The notes below the pieces were generated by a model. The model was not told where the DNA came from and made no database searches. It was given only the letters and a program-made list of their open reading frames with translations. The translations under genes were made by a program, and so were the position numbers. Below are positions 5,498 through 30,066 of a stretch of 31,693 nt of DNA, piece by piece (within the stretch, counting starts at the first letter, position 1; every line of letters begins with the position of its first letter). Origin of the DNA: a virus; the IMG/VR virus record IMGVR_UViG_3300020470_000119, positions 1 through 31,693 of that record. The stretch is one strand, 5' to 3'.

Positions 5498-6120
5498 AAT
5501 CTTAAATCAATTAACTCATTTGAATGTTCCAAAGATGATAATGGACTATCTTTCAGATATATATCAAACGCAATAATAATCCTCTCAGAATCACCCTCAT
5601 GCTTACTTGTATCATGAGGAAGCCAAGAAGGAAATAAGTGCATATGACCCGATTCATTATCTATAGGGTACATCTCATTGTTATCATATGGGTGAAAATA
5701 GTTTGTTGAGGTGTTTTCACACTTAATACTAAAATTTCCGCTAAGATAAGAATGAGGTGCATTACCATGATGATGCTTAGATAACTTATCACCCTTAGTC
5801 ATCACATTTGCCCAACACCTAATCTTGAGTCCATCTAAGCGAGGACTTCTTGTACCACGAACATATTCATCATGAAATTCTATTATCTCCTTATGTAATT
5901 TCTTACATACTGGATAATCCCATTTTAATACATTAAAAAAATAAGACTTACAATTAGGAGCAGTTGTAATTTCATATTCTGGACTTGCTTTCTCTAAAAT
6001 CAATCTAGAGAGTTCATCCAAATCAACATCAATCTCCTTCTCAGCTATAATATAATCCCAAGAAGGAGCAAAAGGTGATACTGTAAGTGCAGATTTAAAT
6101 TGATGTACCTTAACTACCAT
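5494..6120 (-). CDS. 2OG-Fe(II) oxygenase-like protein, tandem paralog 3 of 3
   Basis: The 208-residue protein is the first-translated member of the tandem triplet. It has FAPSWDYII, IRCWANVMTKGD, H116-H-H118, SYLSGNFSIKCENTSTNYFHPY, GHMHLFPSWLPH with H169, and SERIIIAFD with R180. It starts inside the last codons of thyX (7-base overlap at 6114-6120) and overlaps paralog 2 by ATGA. The invariant CENTSTNYYH-type block between the metal sites is the best marker of this subfamily and may shape the substrate pocket. Function beyond the fold is unknown. Confidence 0.8.
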   Translation of the reverse strand: MVVKVHQFKSALTVSPFAPSWDYIIAEKEIDVDLDELSRLILEKASPEYEITTAPNCKSYFFNVLKWDYPVCKKLHKEIIEFHDEYVRGTRSPRLDGLKIRCWANVMTKGDKLSKHHHGNAPHSYLSGNFSIKCENTSTNYFHPYDNNEMYPIDNESGHMHLFPSWLPHDTSKHEGDSERIIIAFDIYLKDSPLSSLEHSNELIDLRL

Positions 6121-10127: not shown

Positions 10128-10135
10128 TATTTATA
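10128..10135 (-). promoter_or_regulatory. Late promoter TATAAATA
   Basis: An exact T4 late-promoter octamer on the minus strand at 10135-10128. It overlaps the TAA stop of the fibre gene (10133-10131) and lies 19 bases before the glutaredoxin ATG. Confidence 0.75.
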
Positions 10136-13100
10136 GGTAGGTAGGTTCTCCGTCTTGTCCTCCATACACAACGATGTTAACATCTCGTAGGTCTTCAACA
10201 GCAGGGATCCCGTTGTATATTGTAACACCAAATCCCGTTGTTGTCCTGTCATATACTGTTCCCCTGACCAAACCACCTGGGAAGTTGTTAGTACCTCTAC
10301 CATTAATGACTACAGCATAGTTATTATCCTTCATTGCATCAGCAAAGTTAACTGTGTAAACACCAGTAGATACTTGTTCGATTGAGCTGACATTATGTGA
10401 ACGATCTCCAGGAGTATAGTCACTGTTACCTACACCTAAATTAGTATTCATATACCATGCAGTAGCACGACCCTCAAACATCTGAGTGTGTGTACATGTC
10501 TTCAGACCTGCAAGGTTCTTATACTCTCCAACCTTTACAAACTTATGGAACTCATGGTTAAACACCTGAACAGAGTTACCCATACTGCCACCAGTACTAC
10601 CAACACCTGCACCATAATAGAATAACTGTGGTGTCTCTTCAGTAACTTCAATCTCTGTATAAGATCCAGTTACAGTAACACCTTGAGTCATCTTAGAAGG
10701 ACTGGTAGTACCAAATCCTACTGGATCACCTGATGCTGCATAGTAAAACTCAATAGGATAGTTTGCCTGTTGTGCAGCGTTCTCAAATCTATATGTCTGT
10801 CCTACCTCAAACCTTAAGTAAGGTGAATTATATCCTTGAATATTAACTGTCCTATCAGATCCAATACCATTGTACCTGTGGTTGATAGTCTTACCACCAA
10901 TGGTAACAGGTAATGGTTTAAAGTTACCCTGAAACTCTGTGTAAAGACTCTTAGAGGTCTCTGCAGCACCTGTTAAGGTAGAGAACGATGAAGTTTGTGC
11001 GAAGTTAGCATTGAGGGCATTGGAAGCGATCCCTGAGTTAGTTGCGAAGGTTGCTACACCACACTTGTCAGAGTAACTAGCAACACCACAGATATCAGCA
11101 TGAGGAACCTTCTGTACTGAAAGTGTAGTACTACCATTAACTAATGCACCCACATCTATACTTAAACCAAAATCTATGGTTGATGCAGTACCTACAACAG
11201 ATCCATCATCCTTTACTTCGATACCACTACCAACTGCAGTGATATTAGTAAGCATACTACCATCACCATAGAACTTATCGTATGTTCTAATAGGATTGTA
11301 AGATACAATATCAAAGTTAGTTCCAACTCCTAAAGCTAAACTAGCAGTAGCAGCATTACCTGTCGTACTCTGAGAAACAACAGCTTCAGTCGCTAACCCT
11401 GCTAATGTAGCATAGTCAGCAACACCTGCTGTATCTGCACGAGTGACAGCAACACCAACAGCAAGACTCTGAGCAGTTAATGCAGTACCTACTATGTTTG
11501 GTACACTAACTGTTACAATACCAGCAGAGATAGGAGATACATTTAAATATTCCCCAAAGTTTATAGTAGCAGCAACACCAATCGGTGACATATTATTACT
11601 GATACTGACACCAAACCCTGCAGCAGTTACACCAGTAATTTGAGAACCATCACCAACAAATGCTGTGGCAGTTATGACACCAGTAGTATTAACATCACCA
11701 TCTGTTCCAACTCCAGTAGCTCCCTCATCAATAGGTGCAGTGTAAGCAGCAAATGCTACATCAGTTCTGGATGCTCTAGTAACTAGAGTTTGGTCTTTAG
11801 CAAGACCTATATTGTCTATCGTTAAATCTTGTAGTGGTTTTAATCTCAAACCAAACAAGAAATAATCAGCAAGAGTAAAGGTACTGATATCACCTGAAGC
11901 AATACCAACAGAGACTGAAGCACTTCTATCAGAGTTTCTATTGGATACATGTATCGTTGCTACACCATCATTAGTAGCAGTTACTAGACCTACATTATCA
12001 TTGATCTGAGGAAAAGCAGTACTACTAATGTATGAGTTCTGACTACCTAATAATTTTGCAACATCTAATTTAACATTAGGAAAACTCTTAGATGCTATTG
12101 CAACAAAACTTACACCAGGTTCAGATGATGTAACAAATATTCTATCTCCTGCCTTTAAAGTTATATCTTCATACAGTGCATTGCCTCCCACTTCCATCGG
12201 GATACCATAAGCAAGATAATCAGAATCTTTATGACCAGCATCAGTTGATACAATATTAAACTTTCCAGTCATAGCTGGGTGTGATGTACACTGATAATAT
12301 AATGTATCAGGTGCATCATCAGGGACATCAAATGTTACTAAACTATTACCAGGAACACCATTAGCATCGTTGCCAGTAACACCATTAGTATAAGGAGTGT
12401 TACCACCACCTATTGCTGGTCCTGTTTGAATTCTAAAAGGATGAGCTCCACCAGCACCAGTACCTACATGATTTGCAGTACCAGTTACATTTGCATAATT
12501 AATATGGAAAGGATGTCCTGGAGCATTGACAACAAAGTTTATAGTATCTCCTTCAGTGATAGTAACATTTAAATTGTCTCCACTAACAGCACCAAGTCTA
12601 TCATTACCTGATAAAGTATAAGCACCAGAACCATTATTAGTTACATTAATAGTATAACTATTACCTCCACTACCTGACTGGACAATAATCTGTCCGTTCA
12701 TTGGTCCATGATACTCACAATTATAATAATAAGTATTAGCTGAATCACCACTAGCAGTAATCCAAGATACAGTTCCAGTCTCAGAACCCTGTCCAGTTGC
12801 AGTGTTTTGACCGTAATTATCAACGCCTGTTAATAATTTAAAAGTATATTTTACACCTCTTATAAGTGTTATATCAGGATCATACTGTGGAACATCACCA
12901 ATATCTCCACCAGTAAACTTATAATCATCTGCATTATCAGCATCAACAAAATAATCTACCTGCTCTGGACTTCTACTAATAGAAACAGAATGAGTTAATT
13001 CATCCTCAACCTGATTCGATGCTGAAACAGAAAGAGTAACTAACTGGGTAGCAGTATACAGTAGGGTGTTGGTTATAGTACCCTTCTGATAAGTCGTTTT

Positions 13101-13136
13101 TAACGATGCGAGTCTTCCTATCACGGCTCTATGCAC
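10131..13136 (-). CDS. Large tail-fibre-like structural protein with cupredoxin-like modules
   Basis: The 1001-residue protein opens with GTG at 13136; a second GTG at 13124 (starting IGRLASLKTT) is equally likely. N-terminal part: two cupredoxin-like modules ending YYYNCEYHGPMNG (about 137-149) and LYYQCTSHPAMTG (about 276-288), both C-x2-H-x2-M. The second also has HPFHI upstream, a full potential type-1 copper ligand set. Middle: many short Ala/Thr/Val repeats (GVADYATLAGLATEA-like) typical of cyanophage fibres. C-terminal: a third module where the motif is lost (LFYYGAGVGSTGGSMGN). It is preceded by a late promoter. Probably a fibre or whisker contacting the host surface; copper binding is untested. 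Confidence 0.85.
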   Translation of the reverse strand: MHRAVIGRLASLKTTYQKGTITNTLLYTATQLVTLSVSASNQVEDELTHSVSISRSPEQVDYFVDADNADDYKFTGGDIGDVPQYDPDITLIRGVKYTFKLLTGVDNYGQNTATGQGSETGTVSWITASGDSANTYYYNCEYHGPMNGQIIVQSGSGGNSYTINVTNNGSGAYTLSGNDRLGAVSGDNLNVTITEGDTINFVVNAPGHPFHINYANVTGTANHVGTGAGGAHPFRIQTGPAIGGGNTPYTNGVTGNDANGVPGNSLVTFDVPDDAPDTLYYQCTSHPAMTGKFNIVSTDAGHKDSDYLAYGIPMEVGGNALYEDITLKAGDRIFVTSSEPGVSFVAIASKSFPNVKLDVAKLLGSQNSYISSTAFPQINDNVGLVTATNDGVATIHVSNRNSDRSASVSVGIASGDISTFTLADYFLFGLRLKPLQDLTIDNIGLAKDQTLVTRASRTDVAFAAYTAPIDEGATGVGTDGDVNTTGVITATAFVGDGSQITGVTAAGFGVSISNNMSPIGVAATINFGEYLNVSPISAGIVTVSVPNIVGTALTAQSLAVGVAVTRADTAGVADYATLAGLATEAVVSQSTTGNAATASLALGVGTNFDIVSYNPIRTYDKFYGDGSMLTNITAVGSGIEVKDDGSVVGTASTIDFGLSIDVGALVNGSTTLSVQKVPHADICGVASYSDKCGVATFATNSGIASNALNANFAQTSSFSTLTGAAETSKSLYTEFQGNFKPLPVTIGGKTINHRYNGIGSDRTVNIQGYNSPYLRFEVGQTYRFENAAQQANYPIEFYYAASGDPVGFGTTSPSKMTQGVTVTGSYTEIEVTEETPQLFYYGAGVGSTGGSMGNSVQVFNHEFHKFVKVGEYKNLAGLKTCTHTQMFEGRATAWYMNTNLGVGNSDYTPGDRSHNVSSIEQVSTGVYTVNFADAMKDNNYAVVINGRGTNNFPGGLVRGTVYDRTTTGFGVTIYNGIPAVEDLRDVNIVVYGGQDGEPTYL

Positions 13137-13185: not shown

Positions 13186-13971
13186 ATGTATATTCTTACT
13201 GGAGCTGATGGATTCATTGGCAAACACTTCAAGAGTTCTCTTGATGGTGTAGTTGAAGTTGACCTAGAAAATTGTCTGGACTTCTTAGATAACTTTAAGA
13301 GTTGGGACAAGATAGATATGATCATTCATCAAGGTGCGTTGTCCTCTACAACCAACAAGAACCTTGAGATGGTATACAAATATAATATTGACTTCAGTAT
13401 TAAATTATTTGAGATAGCAATTAAATATGGTATCCCTGTTAAGTATGCTAGTTCAGCATCTGTCTACGGTAATCAACAAGGCATTATAAATCCCCTGAAT
13501 TACTACGCATTATCTAAAGCAACAGTAGACTACTGGGTCTTGGATAATATAGAACGCTTTAGATATGTTCAGGGGTTTAGATACTTCAATGTGTATGGAT
13601 CAGGTGAGCATCATAAAGGAGCGATGGCATCACTAGTCAGTCAGTTCCAATGGCAAGCAGCTACTGGTCAAATACATCCGTTTGAAGGCTCCGATCAAAT
13701 TCTTCGTGACTATGTGTGGGTAGGGGATCTGGTGAATGTAGTGTTATCGAACACTGCGGGCTCTGGCATATTCGATCTTGGCACAGGATCGCCAACAGCA
13801 ATTGGCACTGTAGCTCAACTAGTTTCAGCAAAAACGCAGTCGAAATTGATTCCAATCCCATTTCCTCCTCATCTTAAGGGTAAGTACCAATATTATACCA
13901 AAGCTGACATGAGTTGGTTGAAAGATTATAATTTCTTAACAATTGAAGACTATCTTAATCGCCAGGTATAA
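13186..13971 (+). CDS. ADP-heptose epimerase-like SDR (HldD-like)
   Basis: The 261-residue protein is the only plus-strand gene. It has GADGFIGKH (Rossmann), HQGALSSTT (HldD-type substrate segment), YASSASVYG, the catalytic YALSK, and FRYFNVYGSGEHHKGAMAS, which is highly typical of ADP-L-glycero-D-manno-heptose 6-epimerase (HldD/RfaD). It is shorter than the bacterial enzyme (~310). A HldA-like kinase, HldC-like cytidylyltransferase and GT9 transferase lie nearby. It diverges from the fibre gene and converges on the cupin gene with a 17-base 3' overlap. Only weak promoter elements (TAGAAT at 13159-13164) are seen. A related nucleotide-sugar epimerase is the alternative. Confidence 0.85.
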   Translation: MYILTGADGFIGKHFKSSLDGVVEVDLENCLDFLDNFKSWDKIDMIIHQGALSSTTNKNLEMVYKYNIDFSIKLFEIAIKYGIPVKYASSASVYGNQQGIINPLNYYALSKATVDYWVLDNIERFRYVQGFRYFNVYGSGEHHKGAMASLVSQFQWQAATGQIHPFEGSDQILRDYVWVGDLVNVVLSNTAGSGIFDLGTGSPTAIGTVAQLVSAKTQSKLIPIPFPPHLKGKYQYYTKADMSWLKDYNFLTIEDYLNRQV

Positions 13972-14311
13972 GTCTGTGTGAATCCTCATCAAAATGTTCA
14001 GTAGAAAATTCAAATAATTCTGAGTCTTCTAGTGCAAGCATCTGATGTCTAGTTCCTCTACAACAATGAAAACTATCACCAGGTTCTAGCAACATAGTCT
14101 TTGCAGAATCTCTATCATTATCAGAACTATAAAACAATTCGATCCTTCCTGACTGTAGGTAGAAGGTCTCATCTTTTAGTATGTGATAATGCCATGAGCA
14201 CCTGTGGTTTTTCTTAATAAACAATAGCTTACCACAATACTCATCAGAGTTAGCGATCCATTTCTCGTAACCCCAACCTTTATCTACAAATTTAGGTTGT
14301 TTCTTTTTCAT
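13955..14311 (-). CDS. Cupin (mannose-6-phosphate isomerase-like)
   Basis: The 118-residue protein is a single cupin. KGWGYEKWIAN opens it; motif 1 is H41-Y-H43-x4-E48-x6-G55 (HYHILKDETFYLQSG), and motif 2 is PGDSFHCCRGTRHQM with H82/H89. The three-ligand motif suggests a metal site. The WGYE(K/E) start and overall size resemble the C-terminal domain of type II phosphomannose isomerases and small sugar-phosphate cupins, so it may isomerise or bind an early sugar phosphate of this island. Its ATG overlaps the HAD gene (ATGA, 14308-14311), and its 3' end overlaps the convergent hldD-like gene. Confidence 0.8.
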   Translation of the reverse strand: MKKKQPKFVDKGWGYEKWIANSDEYCGKLLFIKKNHRCSWHYHILKDETFYLQSGRIELFYSSDNDRDSAKTMLLEPGDSFHCCRGTRHQMLALEDSELFEFSTEHFDEDSHRLIPGD

Positions 14312-14655
14312 TTAAAAAAATCCTCATCTTTTACACCTTTGTCATCAATAAACAAATCAGCATGGGGTTTACCGAAGATTAACTCATGGTATTTACACCC
14401 CCATATATCTAGCTGCATTTTAGTCAGAGGTTCTACAATCTCTTTCGCTTTTGCTTTCGCTTCTTCATTAGAAAGATGTTTATTTCTTCCCATTGCACGA
14501 GCAGTCATGTACATAATGTAATGTCCTTCATCATATAACTTATTAATCTTTTCTATCCTATCCTTTTTAGGAGTAGCACCTTCATACTGACATGCATTAC
14601 ATGTACCAGGTGTACAGATAGTACCATCAATATCAAAGCAGTATCTTTTAAACAC
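14308..14655 (-). CDS. HAD-superfamily phosphatase (capsule/LPS type)
   Basis: The core protein of ~115 residues begins VFKRYCFDIDGTICT with the HAD nucleophile pair D-x-D-G-T, followed by MTAR (motif II) and LFIDDKG (motif IV). The order and short cap resemble EcbF/BcbF-type capsule-biosynthesis phosphatases. Start: GTG at 14655 overlaps the upstream stop by eight bases and fits the family's N-terminus; ATGs at 14703 and 14754 are in frame but add a non-conserved leader inside the upstream gene. Three cysteines (CTPGTCNAC) near the active site are unusual. It may dephosphorylate a heptose or another sugar phosphate; GmhB itself has a different Cys/zinc layout. Confidence 0.8.
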   Translation of the reverse strand: MFKRYCFDIDGTICTPGTCNACQYEGATPKKDRIEKINKLYDEGHYIMYMTARAMGRNKHLSNEEAKAKAKEIVEPLTKMQLDIWGCKYHELIFGKPHADLFIDDKGVKDEDFFK

Positions 14656-16441
14656 TTTTGTGGTGGTAGGGTAAGGATCCAACGAAGATTGAGTTGTCTG
14701 CATAACCTTTCTTGTGTTTGTTTTTATTTTCTTTTCTATAAACCATTTTAGCATGTTCTGGAAGATAAAGGTAGTCCACTGCAGAATTGTCTATAATATA
14801 CAAAACATCCTTAATAGTTTCTGCCATAGTATCACCAGAAAGATTCAATGAAGTATTGAATAGCATAGGGACACCAGTTCTATTATAGAATTCTTTAATT
14901 ATATTATAGTAATTCTCATTCTGTTCTTTAGTAACAGTTTGTATCCTACATGTACCATCAACATGAATAACACCAGGTATAATATCTCTCTTATCTTCTA
15001 AGACATCAACTGCATACATCATGTAAGGTGTCTCTTCCATGCCACGAAGATCAAACCATTCATGTACATACTCTGCTAAAACAGTAGCAGCAAATGGTCT
15101 AAAGAACTCTCTTAATTTAATTTTATTAACTTGTACTCTAGCATCAGGTATAGTTGGATCAAACAACAGAGATCTATTACCTAAAGCTCTTGGTCCTTGC
15201 TCTGATCTTCCTTGAAATAATGCTACTGCATTTCCTTTCTGGATTACATCTACAACATCAGAAACCTCTGCAGAATATGAATCAGATGGTGCATAGTATT
15301 CTCTAGTTGGTCCCAGATACAAACTCTTCAATGGTTTTATATCATATGATTGAGAGATAGAATAATGATTATACAATGCCATACCAACAGCAGTTCCTGC
15401 ATCGGTAGAGATAGGTTCAACATATAATTTATATCCTTCTGGTAAATGTTTAAGATACTCATAGTTAGCAACACAATTTAAAGCACACCCACCAGACAAA
15501 ACAATATTCTTAGAGTCACCCAACTCTATTGCTTTCTTAATAAGATTAATCATATAAGATTCAAAATCCTTTTGTAATCTGTAAGCAAGATTACAAAGAT
15601 ACTGAAACTTTTTCCTAGGATCTTTTATACTTCTAAAGACAGGTACTTTCTTAACATAATCATATGGTATAAACTCTGCCCCACAACTACCTCGTTCCCA
15701 CATACTCTCATCAATCTCACCATCAATAACAAATGGTTTAATGTTTGGATCTTCTTCACCCCAAGGAGCAAGACCCATCAAAGTTCCACACCCAAGGTGT
15801 CCCCACCCAAAGTAATTAGCAATACCAGAATAAACCATACCAATACCAGTGGTAGGTTCTGGACAAGTCGGTGGTTTAATTGCTTCCTTAGGAAACTTAT
15901 TAGCTAGAGTATACCAAGGAACAACTTTCTTATGAACAGTCTCAAAGTTACAAGGATATGATGCTTTGTATATTGTTTCAACTTCATGAGAACAATCATC
16001 AACATGAGCACCTGCACCATCAACAATGACACATGTTGCATCTTTAAATCCAGAGTTATAAAATCCAATAGCAGCATGATATAAATGATGCTCACTACTA
16101 AGATTATTAAATAAAGCTCTCTCAGATTTAGATGCTTTATGAACTAACTGGACACAGGTATCAATAGTTTCATCAACTTTACGATAAGAAATCCCAGACT
16201 TTTTAGATTTAATATCTTCATCAGAATGAAGTAAACCTGCACCTAATACAAGTGCTACATTGGGATCAATAAATTTAGCAACTTCACATAAAGATAAGAA
16301 AGGTTGGTTGTCATGTTTCTTATGACTCAACCTCTCTTCTTCTAATACTAAATCAAGTACACCATCCTTCACATAAGCAACAGATGCATTATGTGTAGCA
16401 TTAAATGCTAAGATACTATTTGCTGAGAATTCCATCAACAT
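14648..16441 (-). CDS. Carbamoyltransferase (NodU/CmcH family), copy 1
   Basis: The 597-residue protein has both domains of O-carbamoyltransferases. The N-terminal Kae1-like metal/ATP domain has THNASVAY, VLEEERLSHKK, HHLYHAAIGFYNSGF and GGCALNCVANYEY, with VEPISTDAGTAVG. The C-terminal YrdC-like domain has LFQGRSEQGPRALGNRS, REFFRPFA, VDGTCRIQTV and PMLFNTSLNLSGDTM. Such enzymes make carbamoyl-adenylate from carbamoyl phosphate and ATP and transfer the carbamoyl group to a sugar or antibiotic hydroxyl. The start is 16441 or M3 at 16435; the gene overlaps the kinase by about 26 bases. Copy 2 lies at 17555-19381, across the Hld pair. Confidence 0.93.
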   Translation of the reverse strand: MLMEFSANSILAFNATHNASVAYVKDGVLDLVLEEERLSHKKHDNQPFLSLCEVAKFIDPNVALVLGAGLLHSDEDIKSKKSGISYRKVDETIDTCVQLVHKASKSERALFNNLSSEHHLYHAAIGFYNSGFKDATCVIVDGAGAHVDDCSHEVETIYKASYPCNFETVHKKVVPWYTLANKFPKEAIKPPTCPEPTTGIGMVYSGIANYFGWGHLGCGTLMGLAPWGEEDPNIKPFVIDGEIDESMWERGSCGAEFIPYDYVKKVPVFRSIKDPRKKFQYLCNLAYRLQKDFESYMINLIKKAIELGDSKNIVLSGGCALNCVANYEYLKHLPEGYKLYVEPISTDAGTAVGMALYNHYSISQSYDIKPLKSLYLGPTREYYAPSDSYSAEVSDVVDVIQKGNAVALFQGRSEQGPRALGNRSLLFDPTIPDARVQVNKIKLREFFRPFAATVLAEYVHEWFDLRGMEETPYMMYAVDVLEDKRDIIPGVIHVDGTCRIQTVTKEQNENYYNIIKEFYNRTGVPMLFNTSLNLSGDTMAETIKDVLYIIDNSAVDYLYLPEHAKMVYRKENKNKHKKGYADNSIFVGSLPYHHKSV

Positions 16442-17213
16442 CTTCCATTGTCAAAGTATATGTACCAGGATTTTGTACTGCAATAGCTGCACATCTATTA
16501 GCAAAATTAATAGACTCTCTCATGTCAGGTAATTGTATGTAATAGAATACTAATGCTGCTAAGAATGTATCACCTGCACCACTTACATCAAACACTCTAG
16601 TAATAGGTACAGGAAATGTTTGATGATCCCATAATGCACCATTAGGTCCATTAGTTACAATCATATTCTTACCATTAGGTATATGATTAGGATCTAACAA
16701 CTCAAACTCTTTCTTATTAATTTTATATACAACATTATTATATTGTGTTGGTAATTTTTTCTTCTTAGTGTCAACAAATATTTTAATACCTGGATTCTTA
16801 GGTGCTATTATATCAATCAAATTATTATCAACAAATCCTTTATCATAATCAGATATAACAACAGCATCATACTCCAGATGCATTGCTGCCATTCTAAGTT
16901 CTGCCTCACGCAAAGGTTTTACAACAGGTTCATTATCAAGACGCATCACCTGATAGTTAGACTTCTCATCAATATATCTTGTCTTAGTAATAGATTCTTT
17001 ATTAGTAAGGAAGTTTACATTGATACCAAGAGACTTTAAATTCTCATTAACATTCGCTGCCATACCAGGAGCACTTTGAGTCTCCCTATATTTCATAACA
17101 GGTACAGGTGCTTCAGGACTTAGACGACTACATGAACCATAAGCCCATACATCAGTACAACTATCCCCTATCAATAATACATTGTATTGTCTTTGAAGTT
17201 GCATACTTTTCAA
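16416..17213 (-). CDS. HldA-like heptose-7-phosphate kinase (PfkB family, compact)
   Basis: The 265-residue protein matches the kinase domain of HldE/RfaE: VLLIGDSCTDVWAYG, RLSPEAPVPVMK, PGMAANVNENLKSLG, ITKTRYI, QVMRLDNE, and the PfkB signature DVSGAGDTFLAAL with catalytic D215. It is expected to phosphorylate D-glycero-D-manno-heptose 7-phosphate to the 1,7-bisphosphate. The bacterial domain is ~318 residues; here the segment between GINVNFLTNKES and ITKTRY is about 25 residues shorter. The start is at 17213 or M4 (17204), both overlapping the cytidylyltransferase end. In most bacteria kinase and nucleotidyltransferase are one protein; here they are two overlapping genes in reversed order. 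Confidence 0.88.
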   Translation of the reverse strand: MKSMQLQRQYNVLLIGDSCTDVWAYGSCSRLSPEAPVPVMKYRETQSAPGMAANVNENLKSLGINVNFLTNKESITKTRYIDEKSNYQVMRLDNEPVVKPLREAELRMAAMHLEYDAVVISDYDKGFVDNNLIDIIAPKNPGIKIFVDTKKKKLPTQYNNVVYKINKKEFELLDPNHIPNGKNMIVTNGPNGALWDHQTFPVPITRVFDVSGAGDTFLAALVFYYIQLPDMRESINFANRCAAIAVQNPGTYTLTMEDVDGILSK

Positions 17214-17562
17214 TCCTATCGTAGAATTTTAATTCAGCGGCCCAATAAGAACCAATAACTGATTTGTGTTTCCAATCAGAACCAACCACCATTATATCAG
17301 GTTTGATCTCTTTTACCAATTCCTCAAGAGATTCATCACTATCAAAGTACCTAACCTCATCAACTGCTTGCAAAGCAACCAACATCAATCCCCTATCCTC
17401 TTGATTATATATTGGTCTGGTTGGTCCTTTCTTCTCCCTCACTCTATCGTCAGTATCAATACCAACTACAACATAATCTCCAAGAGATTTTGCCCAGTTA
17501 AGTAATGATACATGACCAACATGAAGGAGATCAAATGTTCCATTAACAAAAACCTTAGTCAT
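17161..17562 (-). CDS. HldC-like heptose-phosphate nucleotidyltransferase
   Basis: The 133-residue protein is a HxGH nucleotidyltransferase: VNGTFDLLHVGHVSLLNWAK with H14-x-G-H17, GIDTDDRVREKKGPTRPIY, and IMVVGSDWKHKSVIG in place of the ISSTK-type loop. It matches the C-terminal half of HldE and stand-alone HldC, which transfers AMP from ATP to heptose-1-phosphate. Glycerol-3-phosphate cytidylyltransferase is the main alternative, but the adjacent HldA-like kinase supports heptose. The ATG overlaps the end of carbamoyltransferase copy 2 by eight bases, and its 3' end overlaps the kinase by ~50 bases. Confidence 0.88.
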   Translation of the reverse strand: MTKVFVNGTFDLLHVGHVSLLNWAKSLGDYVVVGIDTDDRVREKKGPTRPIYNQEDRGLMLVALQAVDEVRYFDSDESLEELVKEIKPDIMVVGSDWKHKSVIGSYWAAELKFYDRIEKYATSKTIQCIIDRG

Positions 17563-19381
17563 TTTTAATCGTAACTAGCTTACCAAATTCAGGAAGATAC
17601 AAGTACTCAATATCAGAATTAGAAAGAGTGCGTAATGCATCATCGAGAGTTTCAACCAGAGGTTCTCCACCCAAATTAAAGGAAGTATTAAAGATGATAG
17701 GGCAACCAGTTTGTTTAAAGAATTCATTGATGAGTTTGTAGTAGTTCTCATTTTGTTCCTCAGTTACTGTTTGTATTCTACATGTCCCGTCAACATGTAT
17801 GATAGAAGGTATCTTTTCTTCAACACCTTCTTGACACTTAACAGCATACATCATGTAAGGAGTGTCTTCCATGTCAACTAAATCAAACCACTCATGTACA
17901 TGCTCTGCCAAAATAGAACCTGCAAATGGTCTGAAGTATTCACGATGCTTAACCTTGTTAACAATATCTTTTCCTTTAGGATCACGAGGATCATATAGAA
18001 TAGATCTGTTACCAAGAGCACGAGGACCAGACTCAGATCTACCTTGGAATAATGAAACGATATTCTTATTCAAGATAAGATCTACAACATCCTTATCATT
18101 AGCATCAGTTATCTCTGCATTATATTTCTCAGCAACTGATTCAACATCATCCAATTTATAATTATAATCTATTCCAAGATACAACCCACTATAATCTTTA
18201 ACCTCTTCATTCTTACTCACTTTATGATACCAATAAAGAGCAGCACCTAATGCAGTACCAGCATCACTAGAGATAGGTTCAACATATAAATTAATACCTT
18301 CATCCTCTAACTGTTGCTTATAATAATAGTTAGCCACACAATTCAATCCATATCCACCAGAAATTACAACATTATTATTAGATGTAGTAGCAACAGCAAG
18401 TCTAATCATCTCAACCATCTTCTCCTGAGATGCTGTCTGTACAGCATAAGCCATGTCTCTACGATTCTGTAACCTAGAGAGGTCAGACTGTTCAATGTCT
18501 GGTGGTGCTTGCCATGATGAATCAAGACCTTCATTAACAATACCAGAGTTAGGATAGTATGGTATGAATATATTAGGATTCACATGTCTATAATCACCAT
18601 CACCTTCTGGAGAAAATATTGGTCCCATAGATTCATTAGGTTTACCGTATGGAAATAATCCCATAGTTTTACCTGCTTCTATCCCCCTAAAACCACAGTA
18701 CATAGTGACTGCTTCATATGCTTTCACAATACCACATGTCTGATCAATAACAATTAAAGATGATCCTTTATCATCAGGATCAATCAAGGAGTTATCAAAC
18801 TCACCATCCACCTGCCTTACAGTAGGACCATTACCACCAACATGTTTAAAGAGACAACTAATATCAGATGGATAATCACATCCGTATATACTTTCTACCT
18901 CCCAAAATGTTTGTTGCTTATTAAAAGATCCAAATCTAAAAGCAGATCCTGCACCATCAACAATAAGAGCAACTGCAGTATCAAATCCAGAACGATAGAA
19001 TGCTGCAGCAGCATGAAGTTTGTGATGGATAAGACTAAGATCTTTTACCTGAGGATGTTCACCACCATGAAGTATATTCTGATAAGCAACATCCCTATCA
19101 ATCAATCCAAGTTTTCTAGCCCAACCTGTATAGACATCTTCAATACTATACTCTAGTTCACCAGCAGTCTCTTTAAGATTTTGTGTATGAGCAACCAAAA
19201 GAACATCAAGTTGATCCTCTCCAATGTGCTCCTTCATCTTCATCATAGAAGCAAGAGGAGCACCATCATATTTTTGTCTTGTAAGTCTTTCTTCTTCAAT
19301 AGCAAATTCAATTTTGCCATCCTTTAAAAGACAACACCCTCCATTATGTCCACGGGTGATTGCACCAATCCATTGTGTCAT
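17555..19381 (-). CDS. Carbamoyltransferase (NodU/CmcH family), copy 2
   Basis: The 608-residue protein has TRGHNGGCCLLKDG, IEEERLTRQKYDG, HHKLHAAAAFYRSGF, GGYGLNCVANYYY, VEPISSDAGTALG, LFQGRSESGPRALGNRS, HREYFRPFAG, VDGTCRIQTVTEEQNENYY and IIFNTSFNLGGEP, the full two-domain carbamoyltransferase set. The C-terminal half resembles copy 1 closely, while the N-terminal acceptor-side half differs more, suggesting the two modify different hydroxyls or sugars. It overlaps the heptosyltransferase-like gene by ATGA (19378-19381) and the nucleotidyltransferase by eight bases, so it is part of one operon. Confidence 0.93.
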   Translation of the reverse strand: MTQWIGAITRGHNGGCCLLKDGKIEFAIEEERLTRQKYDGAPLASMMKMKEHIGEDQLDVLLVAHTQNLKETAGELEYSIEDVYTGWARKLGLIDRDVAYQNILHGGEHPQVKDLSLIHHKLHAAAAFYRSGFDTAVALIVDGAGSAFRFGSFNKQQTFWEVESIYGCDYPSDISCLFKHVGGNGPTVRQVDGEFDNSLIDPDDKGSSLIVIDQTCGIVKAYEAVTMYCGFRGIEAGKTMGLFPYGKPNESMGPIFSPEGDGDYRHVNPNIFIPYYPNSGIVNEGLDSSWQAPPDIEQSDLSRLQNRRDMAYAVQTASQEKMVEMIRLAVATTSNNNVVISGGYGLNCVANYYYKQQLEDEGINLYVEPISSDAGTALGAALYWYHKVSKNEEVKDYSGLYLGIDYNYKLDDVESVAEKYNAEITDANDKDVVDLILNKNIVSLFQGRSESGPRALGNRSILYDPRDPKGKDIVNKVKHREYFRPFAGSILAEHVHEWFDLVDMEDTPYMMYAVKCQEGVEEKIPSIIHVDGTCRIQTVTEEQNENYYKLINEFFKQTGCPIIFNTSFNLGGEPLVETLDDALRTLSNSDIEYLYLPEFGKLVTIKND

Positions 19382-20403
19382 TTACCAAACCCTCTATTAA
19401 GTTGTGGAGTATTATCACAGCATTTAGAAGGTTGCTGTTCCTCTTCTAGTTTTAAATTACCAGAGTAAGCCTTAGACTTACCAAGTCTCTTTCTACAACT
19501 AGTGATTACTTCTTTAACATTTTCACCACTCATCTTCATACATTCATCGTTCATCATATCCTGATAGTCTTCTGCTGTCAACCTAATAGGTTGAAAGACT
19601 CGCTTACCCTTACCAATATCAATGATATCAAAGTTAGGATCATCTGGATATGAAATATTTTCAGGGAATGTAGCACCAATAACAGTAGTTACTGTAGTAC
19701 CAACAGACTTAGCAATATGTTGTCCAACACTATCACATCCTAAGAAATGATCTGCACACTCAATGATACCTGCCCATACTCTAATGTCTGCCTGTGGCCA
19801 AGCACATGGAATCTGATTTGAGTCAGGTGGATCAACAACAAACTGAAACTCAGACATGATGATGACAGCATAATCCTTTCTCAAGTTATTAATTATTTCT
19901 ACAATTTCTCTTTGATGAAAACTCCTTGAACTCTGATCAATAATATATTCTCCCTGTACCTCTGCACCTCTACCAAAAGGTTGAACAACTATTACCTTAT
20001 CCTTTTTCGTCTTTGCTTTAACTTGTTCTACAAGATTAATAGCATTGATTGCTTCGGTCTTAGATAATTTAATCTTTGGAACATCAAGTTCTCTGGGTTC
20101 ATCCAACCCATTGATTTCCATGTCATATGCTTGAGCTATATTACATTTCTGATTATAATAATGCCACCTCCTATAAGGTTCAGGTGTCATACAATCTCTA
20201 TGTTTTATCTTATCTTCAAATAGATTCTTATGCCAATGATCATATGCAAACTTATCCAGAACAGGATGACCTTTAAAGAAATTCATCCCTCCTTCTGCTA
20301 CGATAACAAAATCGTCATGGGTTTCAGCATACTTCTCTAGTGCAGGAATAGAAGCAATTACTCTACCAGCACCACCATTAATAAAAAATACTTTAGATCT
20401 CAT
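19378..20403 (-). CDS. Glycosyltransferase family 9 (heptosyltransferase-like)
   Basis: The 341-residue protein has a GT-B layout. The N-terminal GGAGRVIASIPALEKY resembles the 'GD.(l/v)...P.l..lk' start of ADP-heptose transferases, and the C-terminal HFLGCDSVGQHIAKSVGTTV, followed by TVIGATFPENISYPD, matches the GT9 donor-site motif (D-S-x-x-x-H-x-A...G-T). GT9 enzymes add heptose from ADP-heptose, which fits the HldA/C/D genes beside it. A basic, Cys-containing tail follows residue ~305. A weak late-promoter-like TATAAATT is in the short gap upstream. The acceptor is unknown: host LPS, or a phage protein. Confidence 0.8.
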   Translation of the reverse strand: MRSKVFFINGGAGRVIASIPALEKYAETHDDFVIVAEGGMNFFKGHPVLDKFAYDHWHKNLFEDKIKHRDCMTPEPYRRWHYYNQKCNIAQAYDMEINGLDEPRELDVPKIKLSKTEAINAINLVEQVKAKTKKDKVIVVQPFGRGAEVQGEYIIDQSSRSFHQREIVEIINNLRKDYAVIIMSEFQFVVDPPDSNQIPCAWPQADIRVWAGIIECADHFLGCDSVGQHIAKSVGTTVTTVIGATFPENISYPDDPNFDIIDIGKGKRVFQPIRLTAEDYQDMMNDECMKMSGENVKEVITSCRKRLGKSKAYSGNLKLEEEQQPSKCCDNTPQLNRGFGK

Positions 20404-20428: not shown

Positions 20429-21070
20429 TCACATAAAAAGAACTTGTGCTATACGATCATGATCGGTAAACATCCTTTCATCCATCCACTGCATGTGCAA
20501 TGTCTCTGATTCATACACAACGCATCTATTATACACCATTTCCAAACCCAAAACAACCTCCCAACTACCTGAGTCAATAGGATCATCTATCATATCAGGT
20601 TCTGGTGTAGTCTGTGACCCATGCCAAGAGTATAAGTTAGTTCCACCTTGACATTCTTCTGGGGTATTTAAATATATCACCACACCAAAATGATTATCAA
20701 AGCAATCTTGATGAGGAAATATACTATGATCATAAGAAGATTGATTAAGTATATTAACCATGAAACCTTGTTCTCTCCAATTAGCATCCCAATAATGATA
20801 ATTGATTGGTCTACGCCACAGAGGTTCTCTAGATATACTAGTAAAAAATGGTTTTAAATTTTGAATTCTTTTATCATATTCAAACACTCTCCATCCTGGG
20901 AATGCAGATAAAAGATCAGGGTTCTCCTGAGGACTATATCTTTTAGATGACAATGCATACTCTCGTACCTCATCAGGATTCTTATAGAAATTGTCAATGA
21001 TTAATGCATTTCTATTTTCCTTACCTATCTTAGATACTAAGGTAATTTCAGGATCATTTATCTCGAACAT
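20429..21070 (-). CDS. 2OG-Fe(II) oxygenase-like protein (DUF6445-like)
   Basis: The 213-residue protein contains LIIDNFYKNPDEVREYAL near its start and a full H-x-D...H...R set: H120-Q-D122 in FPHQDCFDNHFGVVIYLN, H192 in ESETLHMQW, and R206 in DRIAQVLF. The GGTNLYSW turn between the strands is typical of the DUF6445/2OG fold. Its residues differ from the HxH group elsewhere in the window. It lies directly upstream of the heptosyltransferase gene, so its substrate could be a sugar or surface molecule, though this is only positional. Its start overlaps the neighbouring oxygenase by 17 bases. Confidence 0.78.
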   Translation of the reverse strand: MFEINDPEITLVSKIGKENRNALIIDNFYKNPDEVREYALSSKRYSPQENPDLLSAFPGWRVFEYDKRIQNLKPFFTSISREPLWRRPINYHYWDANWREQGFMVNILNQSSYDHSIFPHQDCFDNHFGVVIYLNTPEECQGGTNLYSWHGSQTTPEPDMIDDPIDSGSWEVVLGLEMVYNRCVVYESETLHMQWMDERMFTDHDRIAQVLFM

Positions 21071-21686
21071 ATATATTCCCCGAAACAGATACTCTCTCTA
21101 TATTAGGAGTCTTAAATGGTATAACCATATGCTCCAACCAAGAAGGAAATATAAAAATATCTCCTGCCTTTGGTATGTAAAACCTCATAGGTGAAAGCAT
21201 ATCCTTTTCTTCACCATATCTAAAGACAATTGATCCTGGTTTAGGTCCACGATTATTCCACTGATAATATTCTTGTGGTATTTCCTCAGGAACATCCAAA
21301 TATAATACAAAACTCAGCAATCCAGTATGATTGTGTAGTGGATTAAAATCATTAGCTTTCTGATAGTTTACCCACAACTCTCTAATATCCCAATCAAATG
21401 GTTCAAATTTACCACCAGAGTATTCTATAAATGATTTTAAATATGTAATTACCCAAGGAGTTAATACTTCTTGCACCCATTCCCTATCATTATCCTTAAA
21501 AGTCCACTCATCTGTCATGATAGCAGCTAACTTATGTGATGAGTTCTGTTTCTCAACACCTCTAACTGTTGCTGCTCTCTTAGATATCTCTTCTATAATA
21601 GAAGGAAGTAATTCACTTTGCCATAAATATGGTCCCCAAGTAGCTACTTGATGCTGTATCTCCTTGGGGACAAATTGTTTTTCCAT
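21054..21686 (-). CDS. 2OG-Fe(II) oxygenase-like protein (TIGR02466 type)
   Basis: The 210-residue protein starts MEKQFVPKEIQHQVATW. The longer frame opens with TTG at 21707 inside a terminator T-run, so the ATG at 21686, with AGGA upstream, is preferred. It shows H118-N-H120 in NPLHNHTGLLSFVLYLD, PSWLEHMVIPF with H186, and ERVSVSGN with R198. The central GSIVFRYGEE and PKAGDIFIFP are characteristic of this family. It is the first gene after a strong terminator, with no clear promoter. Its substrate is unknown. Confidence 0.8.
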   Translation of the reverse strand: MEKQFVPKEIQHQVATWGPYLWQSELLPSIIEEISKRAATVRGVEKQNSSHKLAAIMTDEWTFKDNDREWVQEVLTPWVITYLKSFIEYSGGKFEPFDWDIRELWVNYQKANDFNPLHNHTGLLSFVLYLDVPEEIPQEYYQWNNRGPKPGSIVFRYGEEKDMLSPMRFYIPKAGDIFIFPSWLEHMVIPFKTPNIERVSVSGNIYVRDK

Positions 21687-21705
21687 GTTTAAAATCCTAT
21701 AGGTC

Positions 21706-21736
21706 AAAAAAATTCTGGGAAAAATTTTCCCAGAAT
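21706..21736 (-). terminator. Rho-independent terminator
   Basis: A perfect 12-base inverted repeat, ATTCTGGGAAAA and TTTTCCCAGAAT around one base (21736-21712), is followed on the minus strand by seven Ts (21712-21706). It lies 27 bases after the tail gene ending at 21763, and separates the structural genes from the oxygenase/sugar operon. Confidence 0.88.
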
Positions 21737-23491: not shown

Positions 23492-26400
23492 TTAGATGGT
23501 GATAATTCTCCATCCTTGTGATCCATCAAAGAAGACCATTTCAAATGCTGCACCTTCAGTTGTGACTGTTAGGTCAGCGTTGTCTCCCATAATTGGATTA
23601 CCGTTTCTACCAACCGTTAATGAGTTTGAATCAAATGTCTTATGTGAGTCAAAGATTCTTACACTGTCACCCTTAACAGGAGATGCAGGTAAAGTAACTG
23701 TGAATGAACCACCAGATGTGTTAGCGAAACACTGTTGCTTGTTAGCTAGAGTAACATTAGATGTTGAAGTTACATTAGCGTAAGCACCTAGAGGCAACCA
23801 GTCTGAACCGTTATAGAATTCTAGTCCGTTTGCATCAGTGTCGTAGCGAAGACCACCTTCAAAGAGGTCACCACCAGTAGGTCTACCAGATTGAGGACCA
23901 CGAGGAGGAACGATGATACCAGAAGTAGCATCCATTCTTGCTCGTGTTAAGAATCCACGAACTGCTTTCTCAGTAGGACATGCAGAGTTAGAGTCTCCAC
24001 CCATTGTTTCATCAGAGGAGAACTCACTAATAGATTCACCAATCTGACCACCAATAGCACCCAGTTTCAATTCTGTCAAACCAGAAAGGTTGAATGCGGA
24101 AGCGTCCAAGGTAGCAGCACCAGTTAACTGGTTAACTGAGAAGTATTCACCAACCCTGAAGTTACCTCCTTGGTCAGTAGATACAAAGTAAATTCTACCA
24201 GGTGCGACTATGTTAGTCTCTTGACCTTGAGCAGCACTGTTCTCATCTACATTTGGATAGTTTGTAGTAGTTGTATTACCTGTACCAATCAATAGGAAGT
24301 CATGACCTGTTAGACGAATCTTGGAGAACTTACTTCTCATTGCGACTCGCTGATCATCCATACCTATAGTAGGTGAGTTAGCTTTACCAGGTGCGATGTT
24401 AATTGTTGCTCTACCATCACCAAGAGTGATAGCTTCAACTGAAGTCTTACCAACACCACCACCACCGATGTATGTATGGATACCTGTAAAGGTTGATGGT
24501 ACATTCTCAGTAGCACTGTTCTTATCGTTCAATACCTGAACTGAGAAGAATGTATTACCAACTCCAGAAATCTGAAGTGGAATGTCAGCAGCAGGGTCAG
24601 TTACCCTTGGGTAAGCAGCAGATCCACCACCACCTACATTACACTCGAAGTGGAGTGATCCAGTTTTAATTCTTATAAAGTCACCAAACTCTAGGTTATG
24701 ATTAGTAGTCGTAAAGACTGTCATAATACCAGTCTGAGGTGTATACTGTGCGTCGTATACATCTGCCTTAGTTGGTTCCTGATAGTTAGAAGATGTTCTA
24801 ACAATGTAAGAGTTGCTATCAGAGAATCCCATACCAGTGGTAGAGAATCCAAGAGCATCACCAACAGTTAGAGAGGTTGTTAAACCTGTCAACTCCATCA
24901 AGATACCTTTCTGTCCTTGAACAGCATTTGAAGCTGAAGCAATCTTAGACCATGCAGTACCACCTGAACCAACAGAATCAAATTCTATTGCTTCACCAGG
25001 TTTGAATACTGTAGTACCAATACCGATTGCACCGTTAGGTGTTACAGTAGGATCGCTTGATGTGTTACCAAATCCAACAAAGTACTTGAAGTAAATTGAG
25101 TCACTAGATGACTGGTCGTTAGTTAATGTAGCACGAGCACCTGACTCAGTACCACGAATCGTAGCACCAACAGCAACTGTACCAACTGTATTACCAGGAA
25201 GCAACTCCATCTTGTCACCGTAGATCTTACCAGGTCTCGCTACCTCATGGGTAGAGAATCCAACTGCAAGAGCACCGTAAGTACCATAAGAGTTGTTACT
25301 TGATAGAGAACGAATCTCTGAACCAGTGTCTGAAATGTAACCGTATGCACAGTAGTAAGTGAAACAGGATACAATCTCAGCAACAGCGTCATCTTCTAAG
25401 TAGATTCCGACACCACCTGACATAACATTGGTGAAGGAGTCAAACACCATTGACTTGTAACCCTTACCTTCAGGGTTCTTATGGTGTACACCACCTTCTA
25501 AGTAAACACCGATAGCACCACCATGACCAGTACCATCAGTAGTATTGTGACCGAAGCATGTGCAGTCCTTAATATATGCAGATCTCTTAATAACTGACTC
25601 ATCAGGGTTGAATCTTAGGTAGACACCACATGCAGTAGTACCAACACCAACCTTGTTCTGCATCTTAGCAGTGTTGAATGGATCGTTTACATCGTAATCG
25701 AATCCTTCCATACCACGCATCGTGATACCCTGTACAGTTACAGCGTCAGATACGAAGAACATTGTCGAACGACTGTTAGGTGTGACACCATCGTTGGATA
25801 ATCCTTCAGCAGGTCTAATAGTAGAACCTCTAAGAACATCACCAGCAATACAGAAGTTCTTACCAAGTGTCATTGGTAACTGCTCATCGAATCTACCAGC
25901 AGATAGCTTCAAGATAACAGGAGCAGCGTTTGTTACTGTACCACCAGACACATAGGTGTGTTCATAGGTTGAGACACCAACCATTGCACTGAATGTATTA
26001 CTATCAATAACTTCTTCAACACCGAAGAAGAAGTCTCCAGTCTTACCATTCGGGAAGACAGATGATGGACCTAAACCAGAGTCACAAGTGAACGCTAGTC
26101 CAACTAACTTAACTTCCTGTCCTGCATATAATCCATGACCAGCAGCAGTGATAGTACAAATACCAGTAGGACCATCATAGATAGCACCAGTTATATCATA
26201 CTTTGGATTAGTTGATGTTGTTGCATAAGCAATAGTTTTAAATGCAGCATCAGGAGACTCACCAGAGTTAGTGTCTTGTCCCAACTCAGGGTCAACATAA
26301 TATGTCTTAGTTAATTTACCAGTATATTGCCACTCAGCTTCGTTAGTATTACCTGCCTTCAAGAATGTACCAGCAGTACCAATACCAAGTCTTGTTGGAC

Positions 26401-27502
26401 CAGTTGCATTCCTAGTTAATAGGTCACCCTTAGTTGTTAAGAGTGCTGCACTATCTCCAATAGCAAATGCTTGCCAGCAGTTGACTGATGTTCCAGGTTC
26501 TACATTAATATTGGTAGAAGCAACTGAAATGTATGCTGAAGATTGATACTCAGCGATGTCACCAATCTCATAGACTGTTGTAGTGGTGTAAGCACCAGTC
26601 CAACTAAATCCTCTATTTAATAATGCCCAACCATTAACACCACTATCAATTGTAGTGCTACCGATACCAGTTGGTCTATTATTAGGTTCAATCTTTAATA
26701 TGTCAGCTTGATAGGTGTTACCACCAAATCTTACAATCTGACCTTTAGAATATGCATTACCTGATGCCCAAGCATCTTGTCCACCTGTACCTATACCAAG
26801 GTTAAGGAATGACCAATCATCCTCACTCTCGTTAGGCTGCTTAACTCTGGGGTTAGAACTTATAGCAACATAAGTAGACCCTTTCCACTCAACAATATCT
26901 CCTCTCTGATATCTTTCAGAAGCAATGTATGCTCCTTTATTCTCATACCCTGCAGAAATAGGGCTAAAGTTTTGCTCTGGTGGGAAGAATGCATCCGAAC
27001 CAGCGACCTGACCATCTACACTTACTATCCAATCAGTAGGTGTCTCGAAGGAAGCAGTACAACGATATTCCCTTGGACCAAAGGTAACAACATCGTTAAC
27101 ACCATAGTATGTCGAAGTACTAAATGCTCCTCTAAAATTAAGACCTTCTTGGAATAGCTTCCAATTAGCAGGTAGATCTACACCTTCAAAAGAACTTGAT
27201 AAACCAGATGAAGTGTGCTGGTTTGTACAGATGTACATGTTACCGCCTTCTTTGACGATATCATCTACAACATATGCAGTTGAAGCAGTCCAGTCTCCTT
27301 TGGATTCAAAACCACCTGTATGAAGTTGCCAATTGGCAGCATCAAGAGTAAAATTAGCCGCTAGGGCTTGTGAGGTATGGTTACCTACGCAGACATATGA
27401 GTTCGCTCCAAACCTTACAAGGTCGTCGATGACATATGCAGTGGATGCTGTCCACTCATTACGCCAATTGAACTTCAGTCTACCAAGTCTAAATTCTGCC
27501 AT
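23492..27502 (-). CDS. Giant tail fibre with carbohydrate-binding-like repeats and beta-helix
   Basis: The 1336-residue protein has three zones. Residues ~10-330 hold six degenerate repeats of the form W.ASTAY..DD.V...G..Y.C...HTS (for example WTASTAYVIDDLVRFG and WTASTAYVVDDIVKEG), resembling ChiC/CBM5-12-type carbohydrate-binding modules. A pectate-lyase-like beta-helix follows from TYYVDPELGQDTNSGESP. The far C-terminus (NVTLANKQQCFANTSGGSFT to FDGSQGWRIITI) is a compact beta module also found in the 154-residue protein at 27865. Repeats and fold suggest an adhesive fibre for host polysaccharide. The terminator after it and the three small structural genes beside it place it in the tail-fibre cluster. 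Confidence 0.85.
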   Translation of the reverse strand: MAEFRLGRLKFNWRNEWTASTAYVIDDLVRFGANSYVCVGNHTSQALAANFTLDAANWQLHTGGFESKGDWTASTAYVVDDIVKEGGNMYICTNQHTSSGLSSSFEGVDLPANWKLFQEGLNFRGAFSTSTYYGVNDVVTFGPREYRCTASFETPTDWIVSVDGQVAGSDAFFPPEQNFSPISAGYENKGAYIASERYQRGDIVEWKGSTYVAISSNPRVKQPNESEDDWSFLNLGIGTGGQDAWASGNAYSKGQIVRFGGNTYQADILKIEPNNRPTGIGSTTIDSGVNGWALLNRGFSWTGAYTTTTVYEIGDIAEYQSSAYISVASTNINVEPGTSVNCWQAFAIGDSAALLTTKGDLLTRNATGPTRLGIGTAGTFLKAGNTNEAEWQYTGKLTKTYYVDPELGQDTNSGESPDAAFKTIAYATTSTNPKYDITGAIYDGPTGICTITAAGHGLYAGQEVKLVGLAFTCDSGLGPSSVFPNGKTGDFFFGVEEVIDSNTFSAMVGVSTYEHTYVSGGTVTNAAPVILKLSAGRFDEQLPMTLGKNFCIAGDVLRGSTIRPAEGLSNDGVTPNSRSTMFFVSDAVTVQGITMRGMEGFDYDVNDPFNTAKMQNKVGVGTTACGVYLRFNPDESVIKRSAYIKDCTCFGHNTTDGTGHGGAIGVYLEGGVHHKNPEGKGYKSMVFDSFTNVMSGGVGIYLEDDAVAEIVSCFTYYCAYGYISDTGSEIRSLSSNNSYGTYGALAVGFSTHEVARPGKIYGDKMELLPGNTVGTVAVGATIRGTESGARATLTNDQSSSDSIYFKYFVGFGNTSSDPTVTPNGAIGIGTTVFKPGEAIEFDSVGSGGTAWSKIASASNAVQGQKGILMELTGLTTSLTVGDALGFSTTGMGFSDSNSYIVRTSSNYQEPTKADVYDAQYTPQTGIMTVFTTTNHNLEFGDFIRIKTGSLHFECNVGGGGSAAYPRVTDPAADIPLQISGVGNTFFSVQVLNDKNSATENVPSTFTGIHTYIGGGGVGKTSVEAITLGDGRATINIAPGKANSPTIGMDDQRVAMRSKFSKIRLTGHDFLLIGTGNTTTTNYPNVDENSAAQGQETNIVAPGRIYFVSTDQGGNFRVGEYFSVNQLTGAATLDASAFNLSGLTELKLGAIGGQIGESISEFSSDETMGGDSNSACPTEKAVRGFLTRARMDATSGIIVPPRGPQSGRPTGGDLFEGGLRYDTDANGLEFYNGSDWLPLGAYANVTSTSNVTLANKQQCFANTSGGSFTVTLPASPVKGDSVRIFDSHKTFDSNSLTVGRNGNPIMGDNADLTVTTEGAAFEMVFFDGSQGWRIITI

Positions 27503-28357: not shown

Positions 28358-30066
<1,709 letters not shown>

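Follow-up and report, generated by a model that had tools for sequence, protein, structure and literature searches.

A cupin in the place of GmhA in a heptose and carbamoylation cassette of P-SSM2-like cyanophages: a likely second family of sedoheptulose-7-phosphate isomerase

The window analysed here is a virus record of 31,693 bases (IMG/VR record IMGVR_UViG_3300020470_000119) which carries, at 13186-20403, a cassette of eight genes that would make and use a carbamoylated, activated heptose. All eight named proteins were found as open frames within this interval, on the minus strand except for the epimerase. In order of position these are an HldD-like NAD(P)-dependent 6-epimerase of 261 amino acids with a shortened N-terminal half (13186..13971, plus strand); a cupin of 118 amino acids, proposed as an aldose-ketose isomerase in GmhA's place (13955..14311, minus); a small HAD phosphatase, proposed as the 7-phosphatase in the GmhB role (14308..14655, minus); a second, accessory carbamoyltransferase of the TobZ/NodU type, CT2 (14648..16441, minus); an HldA-like PfkB kinase (16416..17204, minus); an HldC-like nucleotidyltransferase of 133 amino acids (17161..17562, minus); the first TobZ/NodU-type carbamoyltransferase, CT1 (17555..19381, minus); and a GT9-fold, heptosyltransferase-like protein (19378..20403, minus). 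For the kinase the likeliest start is ATG 17204, and for the HAD it is GTG 14655; these corrections remove most of a 107-base overlap.

The three Hld-like enzymes had been assigned to heptose families in the first-pass annotation of this DNA, and profile comparisons bore this out, with placement among ribose or glycerol enzymes not seen. The kinase scored 145.5 bits against TIGR02198 (HldA) and 45.2 against ribokinase, making HldA its best family by around 100 bits, and its best match in the PDB was an HldA (4e84). The nucleotidyltransferase scored 114.3 bits against TIGR02199 (HldC) versus 65.6 for glycerol-3-phosphate cytidylyltransferase, and the epimerase 183.7 bits against TIGR02197 (HldD) versus 38.1 for galE, with E. 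coli HldD (1eq2, E 1.7e-35) as its best PDB match, relative to which its N-terminal part is shorter. These margins over the nearest other families set the three enzymes clearly apart. GAGD and other kinase residues were invariant in 26/26 aligned phage copies (250-264 amino acids in length), HxGH in 18/18 copies of the nucleotidyltransferase, and Y107, K111 and K144 in 18/18 copies of the epimerase aligned to 1eq2; this YxxxK motif plus third lysine we take to be the catalytic residues of HldD. The small HAD protein matched only EcbF/BcbF (27.2 bits) and HAD-IIIA (21 bits), with no GmhB profile match reported at E 0.001, and its DxD, T, K and DD motifs were invariant in all 20 phage copies.

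The apparent lack of a GmhA-type isomerase, noted in the first-pass annotation, is real. SIS_2 (PF13580) was found in none of five complete isolate phage genomes and none of three further virus records, the E. coli control being positive, and a GmhA hidden Markov model made from 14 proteins gave no match in loci L001-L190 or the window. Phage genes annotated in RefSeq as phosphoheptose isomerase were rejected as GmhA, as those checked encode HAD proteins of 107-114 amino acids which matched HAD-type families only, and weakly, with no SIS domain found. Two PHROG labels appear to be wrong: phrog_1238, 'phosphoheptose isomerase', is the small HAD, and phrog_7851, 'cysteine dioxygenase', is a lyxose-isomerase-like cupin, with no cysteine dioxygenase family among the Pfam matches listed for 54 cupin members (25 of 31 families). 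Set beside the bacterial ADP-heptose pathway (GmhA, HldA/HldC or HldE, GmhB, HldD), the phages share HldA, HldC and HldD homologues, and a divergent phage group also shares a GmhB-like enzyme, but GmhA is lacking with the cupin present instead, and the window has an EcbF/BcbF-type HAD in place of GmhB.

The cupin very probably fills this gap, as the first-pass annotation had guessed, and the support comes from its active site, from gene fusions and from mutual exclusion with GmhA. Its structure was modelled with a predicted local distance difference test (pLDDT) score of 97.6, and its profile aligned to D-lyxose isomerase 2y0o placed K28, H41, H43, K46, E48, H89 and E101 on contact residues. 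The sugar and metal contact residues described for the D-lyxose isomerase TsLI are K62, H75, H77, K86, E88, H143, E156 and D163 (from the passages of PMC8378251 on this site), of which the first seven are identical, in that order, to the seven cupin residues (7/8 contacts; the numbering of 2y0o and TsLI differs by 6, as derived from the alignment). All seven were invariant in 54/54 family members, which carry the signature YCxK...SxHxHxxKxE...ExS (phrog_7851), and related cupins lacking linkage to heptose genes have SLQxH where this family has SxHxH. The lyxose isomerase family PF07385 was matched by 53/54 members at E 0.1 or better, although the window cupin itself scored 16.9 bits, under the 20.8 cut-off, and had 28.4 bits against Cupin_2. 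D-Lyxose and D-mannose belong to the same stereochemical series as D-glycero-D-manno-heptose, with the C2-C4 configuration in common. The YCxK, HxH, KxE, H and E contacts are thus shared with D-lyxose isomerases (PF07385; 2y0o, 7nzo), whose PDB chains are of 175-246 amino acids compared with 118 for the phage cupin. A further parallel is ManC/AlgA, in which a type II mannose-6-phosphate isomerase of the cupin fold is fused to GDP-mannose pyrophosphorylase (as summarised in PMC9602691), resembling a fusion of cupin to HldC-like nucleotidyltransferase found in the GmhB-bearing viral group; PF01050 matched 28/54 cupin members, but the nucleotidyltransferase family in ManC/AlgA differs from the HldC-like family in the phage fusion. 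No report of a cupin sedoheptulose isomerase was among the papers listed by searches of the open-licence literature.

Cellular genomes of two groups were compared for the presence of cupin or GmhA beside HldA, with score thresholds chosen from the tables (HldA 128-129, cupin 90-100 and GmhA 40-45 bits). Among 211 Patescibacteria genomes, 15 had a strong HldA, 4 of these with the cupin and no GmhA and 11 with GmhA and no cupin of this kind (Fisher p 7e-4); in the four cupin genomes the cupin was adjacent or N-terminally fused to HldA, the cupin~HldA fusion occurring in two. Patescibacteria cupin matches of 75-112 bits were rejected as the same enzyme, since they have SLQxH or similar and HldA never exceeded 55 bits there. 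Among 219 DPANN genomes 54 had a strong HldA, with cupin in 17, GmhA in 30, both in 2 and neither in 9 (p 1.3e-5), and within 3 kb of HldA lay the cupin in 13 genomes and GmhA in 24, never both. One of the two genomes holding both (G586) has a cupin with SFQYH, not SxHxH, and by a motif rule a single overlap was left (p 1.9e-6). Four DPANN genomes (G415, G404, G522 and G563) had a cupin match and an HldA match in a single frame; GmhA and HldA shared a frame in Patescibacteria G148 and DPANN G452, G471, G468 and G582, with GmhA in the slot that corresponds to the cupin's, which in the DPANN cases is the C-terminal one. In one other DPANN genome (G531:C9:16653-16970) a phrog_7851-type cupin was seen inside a frame of 504 amino acids, with a nearby HldA in a separate frame of 348. 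On an HldA tree of 69 rows (from which the partial HldA of G502 and the split one of G119 were omitted, and to which G468 and G471 each contributed a second copy) the cupin label had to change 14 times, with starred branches forcing 6 of these changes. Over 6 independent pairs, GmhA moved opposite to the cupin in an average of 5.3 and together with it in 0.0. Operons of Woesearchaeota (L172) and Parcubacteria (L159) held GT9-like, cupin, HldA, HldC, GmhB and HldD-like genes; SIS_2 had no match in the L159 genome and in the L172 genome matched only frames of 539 and 627 amino acids. A further Woesearchaeota locus (L178) was observed to have an operon of HldA, HldC and HldD-like genes as well, GmhB and GT9-like genes being seen in L172 and L159.

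The island, which had been thought distinctive, is of a known kind and is a standard cassette of P-SSM2-like cyanophages. It was syntenic in five isolate genomes (P-SSM2, S-CAM1, S-CAM3, Sf-FS3 and S-SSM7), with insertions in some and with a broken annotation but open frame for the S-CAM3 nucleotidyltransferase, so that a unique island was ruled out. IMG/VR was scanned twice, yielding 53 and 80 loci. In 58 of 140 records (L002-L140 plus the window) the GT9-fold, epimerase and kinase genes that were required occurred together; these loci were reached by kinase or cupin bait or by DNA similarity. Some contigs are counted twice among the 58 and others are near-identical, and at 95% kinase identity 37 loci are left. 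All 37 of these non-redundant loci have the cupin and the nucleotidyltransferase, and 36/37 have a carbamoyltransferase of any kind; counts for kinase and cupin are biased as both were bait genes, those for other genes less so. The HAD was present in 35/37 loci and a GmhB-like HAD in the remaining two, in complementary fashion. Synteny in five isolates and presence in 37 loci indicate that the gene set is not due to chance. A comparison made in 2010 had noted that T4-GC 304, 305, 307 and 308 co-occur in P-SSM2, S-SM2 and S-SSM7 (PMC3037559, in its account of these clusters), and by the P-SSM2 annotation these are the nucleotidyltransferase, kinase, cupin and epimerase. The whole 'LPS gene' (lipopolysaccharide gene) set, T4-GC 302-308, has the same genes and order in P-SSM2 and, with insertions, in S-SSM7, and the window differs from it in adding a full second carbamoyltransferase. 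In its sections on the T4-GC set, the 2010 paper gives neither a pathway nor a role for the cupin, and leaves open whether such 'LPS genes' are 'stuffer DNA' (PMC3037559). Our searches of the open-licence literature found no report linking cyanophage, carbamoyltransferase and heptose, and, on phage ADP-heptose as auxiliary metabolism, a single paper that by its abstract is unrelated. A contig in the Prochlorococcus single-cell genome AG-409-P03 (L232, G013:C3:19000-38900) also has the cupin, together with a short kinase of the phage type and further sugar genes. This contig appears to be that of a T4-like phage, and the genome was rejected as a cupin-bearing host because a UvsX-like gene lies on it along with more genes that look phage-like by eye.

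Both carbamoyltransferases of the window are full-length TobZ/NodU types with N- and C-terminal Pfam domains above cut-off (CT1, Carbam_trans_C 206.4 and Carbam_trans_N 86 bits, with PDB matches 7xb6 and TobZ 3ven; CT2, 188 and 67.7 bits), and CT2 is 41% identical to CT1. In Sf-FS3 and S-SSM7 the CT2-like proteins have no C-terminal domain, and two or more carbamoyltransferases were found in 11/37 loci, so duplication, earlier taken as a defining trait, is not general to the cassette. Nor would a carbamoyl-heptose be new, as had been suggested, since O-carbamoyl heptose is present in Pseudomonas LPS, where WapO is described as a putative O-carbamoylation enzyme of LPS heptose, like the step proposed for the phage (PMC8005017, in the parts treating this modification); WapO and the phage enzymes are here likened by described function. 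By sequence the GT9-fold protein matched PF01075 only at E 0.037, and a profile search against PDB sequences found nothing relevant. Its AlphaFold2 model (pLDDT 81.3) had GT9 heptosyltransferases as best structure matches (3tov, Z 21.9 over 277 residues; WaaF, Z 20.0; TibC, Z 18.1), whereas other GT-B proteins gave Z 12.3 or less, except plant NDH subunits at 17.7-18.6. The predicted fold is thus shared with WaaC/WaaF (GT9) and with the TibC (BAHT) protein heptosyltransferase.

Taken together, phrog_7851 cupins are in our estimate a new, non-orthologous sedoheptulose-7-phosphate isomerase, repeatedly swapped with GmhA in phages, Patescibacteria and DPANN and completing the cyanophage pathway, with a probability of roughly three in four. 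The cassette would then probably give the phage its own complete route, leading from sedoheptulose 7-phosphate of the host to a carbamoylated activated heptose, attached most likely to a tail fibre. Gene identities, synteny, GmhA absence, the cupin active-site match, fusions and mutual exclusivity come directly from computation, and on them we infer the catalytic activities, nucleotide, order of carbamoylation and acceptor of the following scheme. The metal-dependent cupin would convert sedoheptulose 7-phosphate to D-glycero-D-manno-heptose 7-phosphate (the GmhA step), which the HldA-like kinase would phosphorylate to the 1,7-bisphosphate; the small HAD (GmhB in the divergent phage group) would remove the 7-phosphate, and the HldC-like enzyme would form nucleoside diphosphate (NDP)-heptose, with ADP presumed from the HldC relationship only. 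The HldD-like epimerase would invert C6, the carbamoyltransferase or carbamoyltransferases would add O-carbamoyl groups, and the GT9-fold protein may transfer the heptose.

Several observations weigh against this reading. The heptose TIGR scores all fall under the curated equivalog cut-offs (345 bits for the HldA and 181.5 bits for the HldC profile), and the kinase is around 30-45 residues shorter than cellular HldA, with about 45 residues of solved HldA unpaired. In the cupin, the eighth contact of TsLI, D163, aligns to a position variable by eye, with the nearby D110 invariant, and structure matches were tied (CapF Z 15.3, Pac13 15.2, PMI 15.0, lyxose isomerase 14.8). Quercetin dioxygenase and other cupins scored equally high in the profile search, so that the fold alone cannot decide the role of the cupin. 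The exclusion from GmhA has gaps too: the 9/54 DPANN HldA genomes that have neither enzyme, in a set where draft genomes can miss genes; three genomes (G003, G011 and G012) that carry a cupin locus and, at non-overlapping places, SIS_2 proteins of GmhA size; a motif rule that was set after the sequences were seen; and an independent-pairs sign test with a median p of 0.0625. Finally, the catalytic Asp of the N-terminal GxGD motif of the heptosyltransferases is replaced by Arg14 in the phage GT9-fold protein, conserved in 22/22 copies (position assigned by hhalign to a cellular GT9 protein, probability 59%), and corresponds to Asp110, the catalytic Asp of TibC (in the structural account of PMC4358343). 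The earlier call of a GT9 heptosyltransferase-like protein therefore stands as to the modelled fold, which is GT9, and fails if a canonical heptosyltransferase is meant. This substitution makes the final transfer step unsure: the protein may rely on a different base, may bind the sugar but not transfer it, or may require a partner.

Sugar-cluster cupins often act on NDP-keto-sugars. It is accordingly conceivable, if unlikely, that the cupin does another heptose job, such as C3/C5 epimerisation or NDP-sugar keto-isomerisation, with heptose 7-phosphate supplied by a host or other phage enzyme; the fold does not discriminate, and a GmhA-size SIS_2 protein scoring at least 45 bits is encoded in 27 of 151 picocyanobacterial genomes. 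Such proteins are missing from most host genomes, nothing in the cassette was identified as an enzyme that makes a keto intermediate, and the exclusion between cupin and GmhA in two phyla and their common fusion slots would be left unexplained. A strong HldA (179 bits or more) was found in 22 of the 151, 19 of which also carry GmhA-size SIS_2, so that HldA-bearing hosts seem to use GmhA and most hosts have neither.

The same host counts bear on what the product is for. That the cassette rebuilds host LPS against rival phages, as the first-pass annotation had offered among its outcomes, is compatible with a cupin isomerase and has been proposed for cyanophage LPS genes (PMC9602691, where these are discussed), and the 22 HldA-bearing genomes would allow it; we regard it as rather unlikely, as the cassette sits between tail-fibre genes and as, in the marine Synechococcus strains WH8102 and CC9311, the LPS reportedly contains neither heptose nor 3-deoxy-D-manno-oct-2-ulosonic acid (KDO) (the analyses cited from PMC4515613). 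Heptose-free LPS in these strains, together with HldA in only 22/151 genomes, makes a phage-owned product likelier than an altered host LPS, and that outcome is weakened. It is very improbable that the genes are non-functional headful filler, the possibility raised in 2010: loss of the GT9-fold catalytic Asp would fit this, but across the aligned copies no catalytic residue varies in the cupin, the HAD or the three Hld-like enzymes, and the 37 loci keep the set together, apart from the exchange of HAD for GmhB and the absence of a carbamoyltransferase from one locus.

The cassette is flanked by a tail-fibre-like protein of 1001 amino acids (10131..13136, minus; PHROGs tail families) and a tail fibre protein of 1336 (23492..27502, minus; phrog_9851 tail fiber, 801 bits), and is adjoined by a DUF6445 protein (20429..21070, minus; PF20043, 50.9 bits), which matches relatives annotated as prolyl-4-hydroxylase-like, and a 2-oxoglutarate (2OG)-Fe(II) oxygenase (21054..21707, minus; PF13759, 58.4 bits). 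Relatives of the former were found in 27/37 loci and of the latter in 23/37. This position between tail-fibre genes and beside 2OG oxygenases makes a virion glycan a plausible product; that the oxygenases hydroxylate tail fibres which are later heptosylated is offered as an idea only. The window holds seven 2OG-Fe(II) oxygenase-like or DUF6445 frames in its 31.7 kb, three in tandem and all on the minus strand (1011-1607, 4116-4787, 4784-5497, 5494-6120, 20429-21070, 21054-21707 and 28358-28942). Segments of tail-fibre-like proteins (window 10131-13136, minus; L054:2857-4437, minus) were seen by eye to end in CxxHxxM (for example CEYHGPM, CTSHPAM and CSLHSGM), resembling cupredoxin copper sites. 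A second nucleotide-sugar epimerase-like protein lies outside the cassette (8016-8783, minus; phrog_540, 197 bits). Late-promoter-like sites, TATAAATA, were not enriched (2 in the window versus 3.9 expected), and PADLOC gave matches for 0/8 cassette proteins.

The likely advance, strongly supported by computation, is that the heptose pathway has a second isomerase family. If this is true, the GmhA step has a second enzyme family that is mislabelled in databases, and cyanophages make activated heptose in hosts that mostly seem unable to do so, by a pathway fed with sedoheptulose 7-phosphate, a Calvin-cycle intermediate. This substrate would also be obtainable via phage transaldolase, whose reaction can yield sedoheptulose 7-phosphate; a transaldolase-family gene was present in 9/10 cassette-bearing phage records, including all five complete ones. 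What had been an 'LPS cluster of unknown use' in phages abundant in the ocean would thereby turn into a defined pathway in which a single missing step is open to test, and the predicted activated heptose points to virion or wall glycans.

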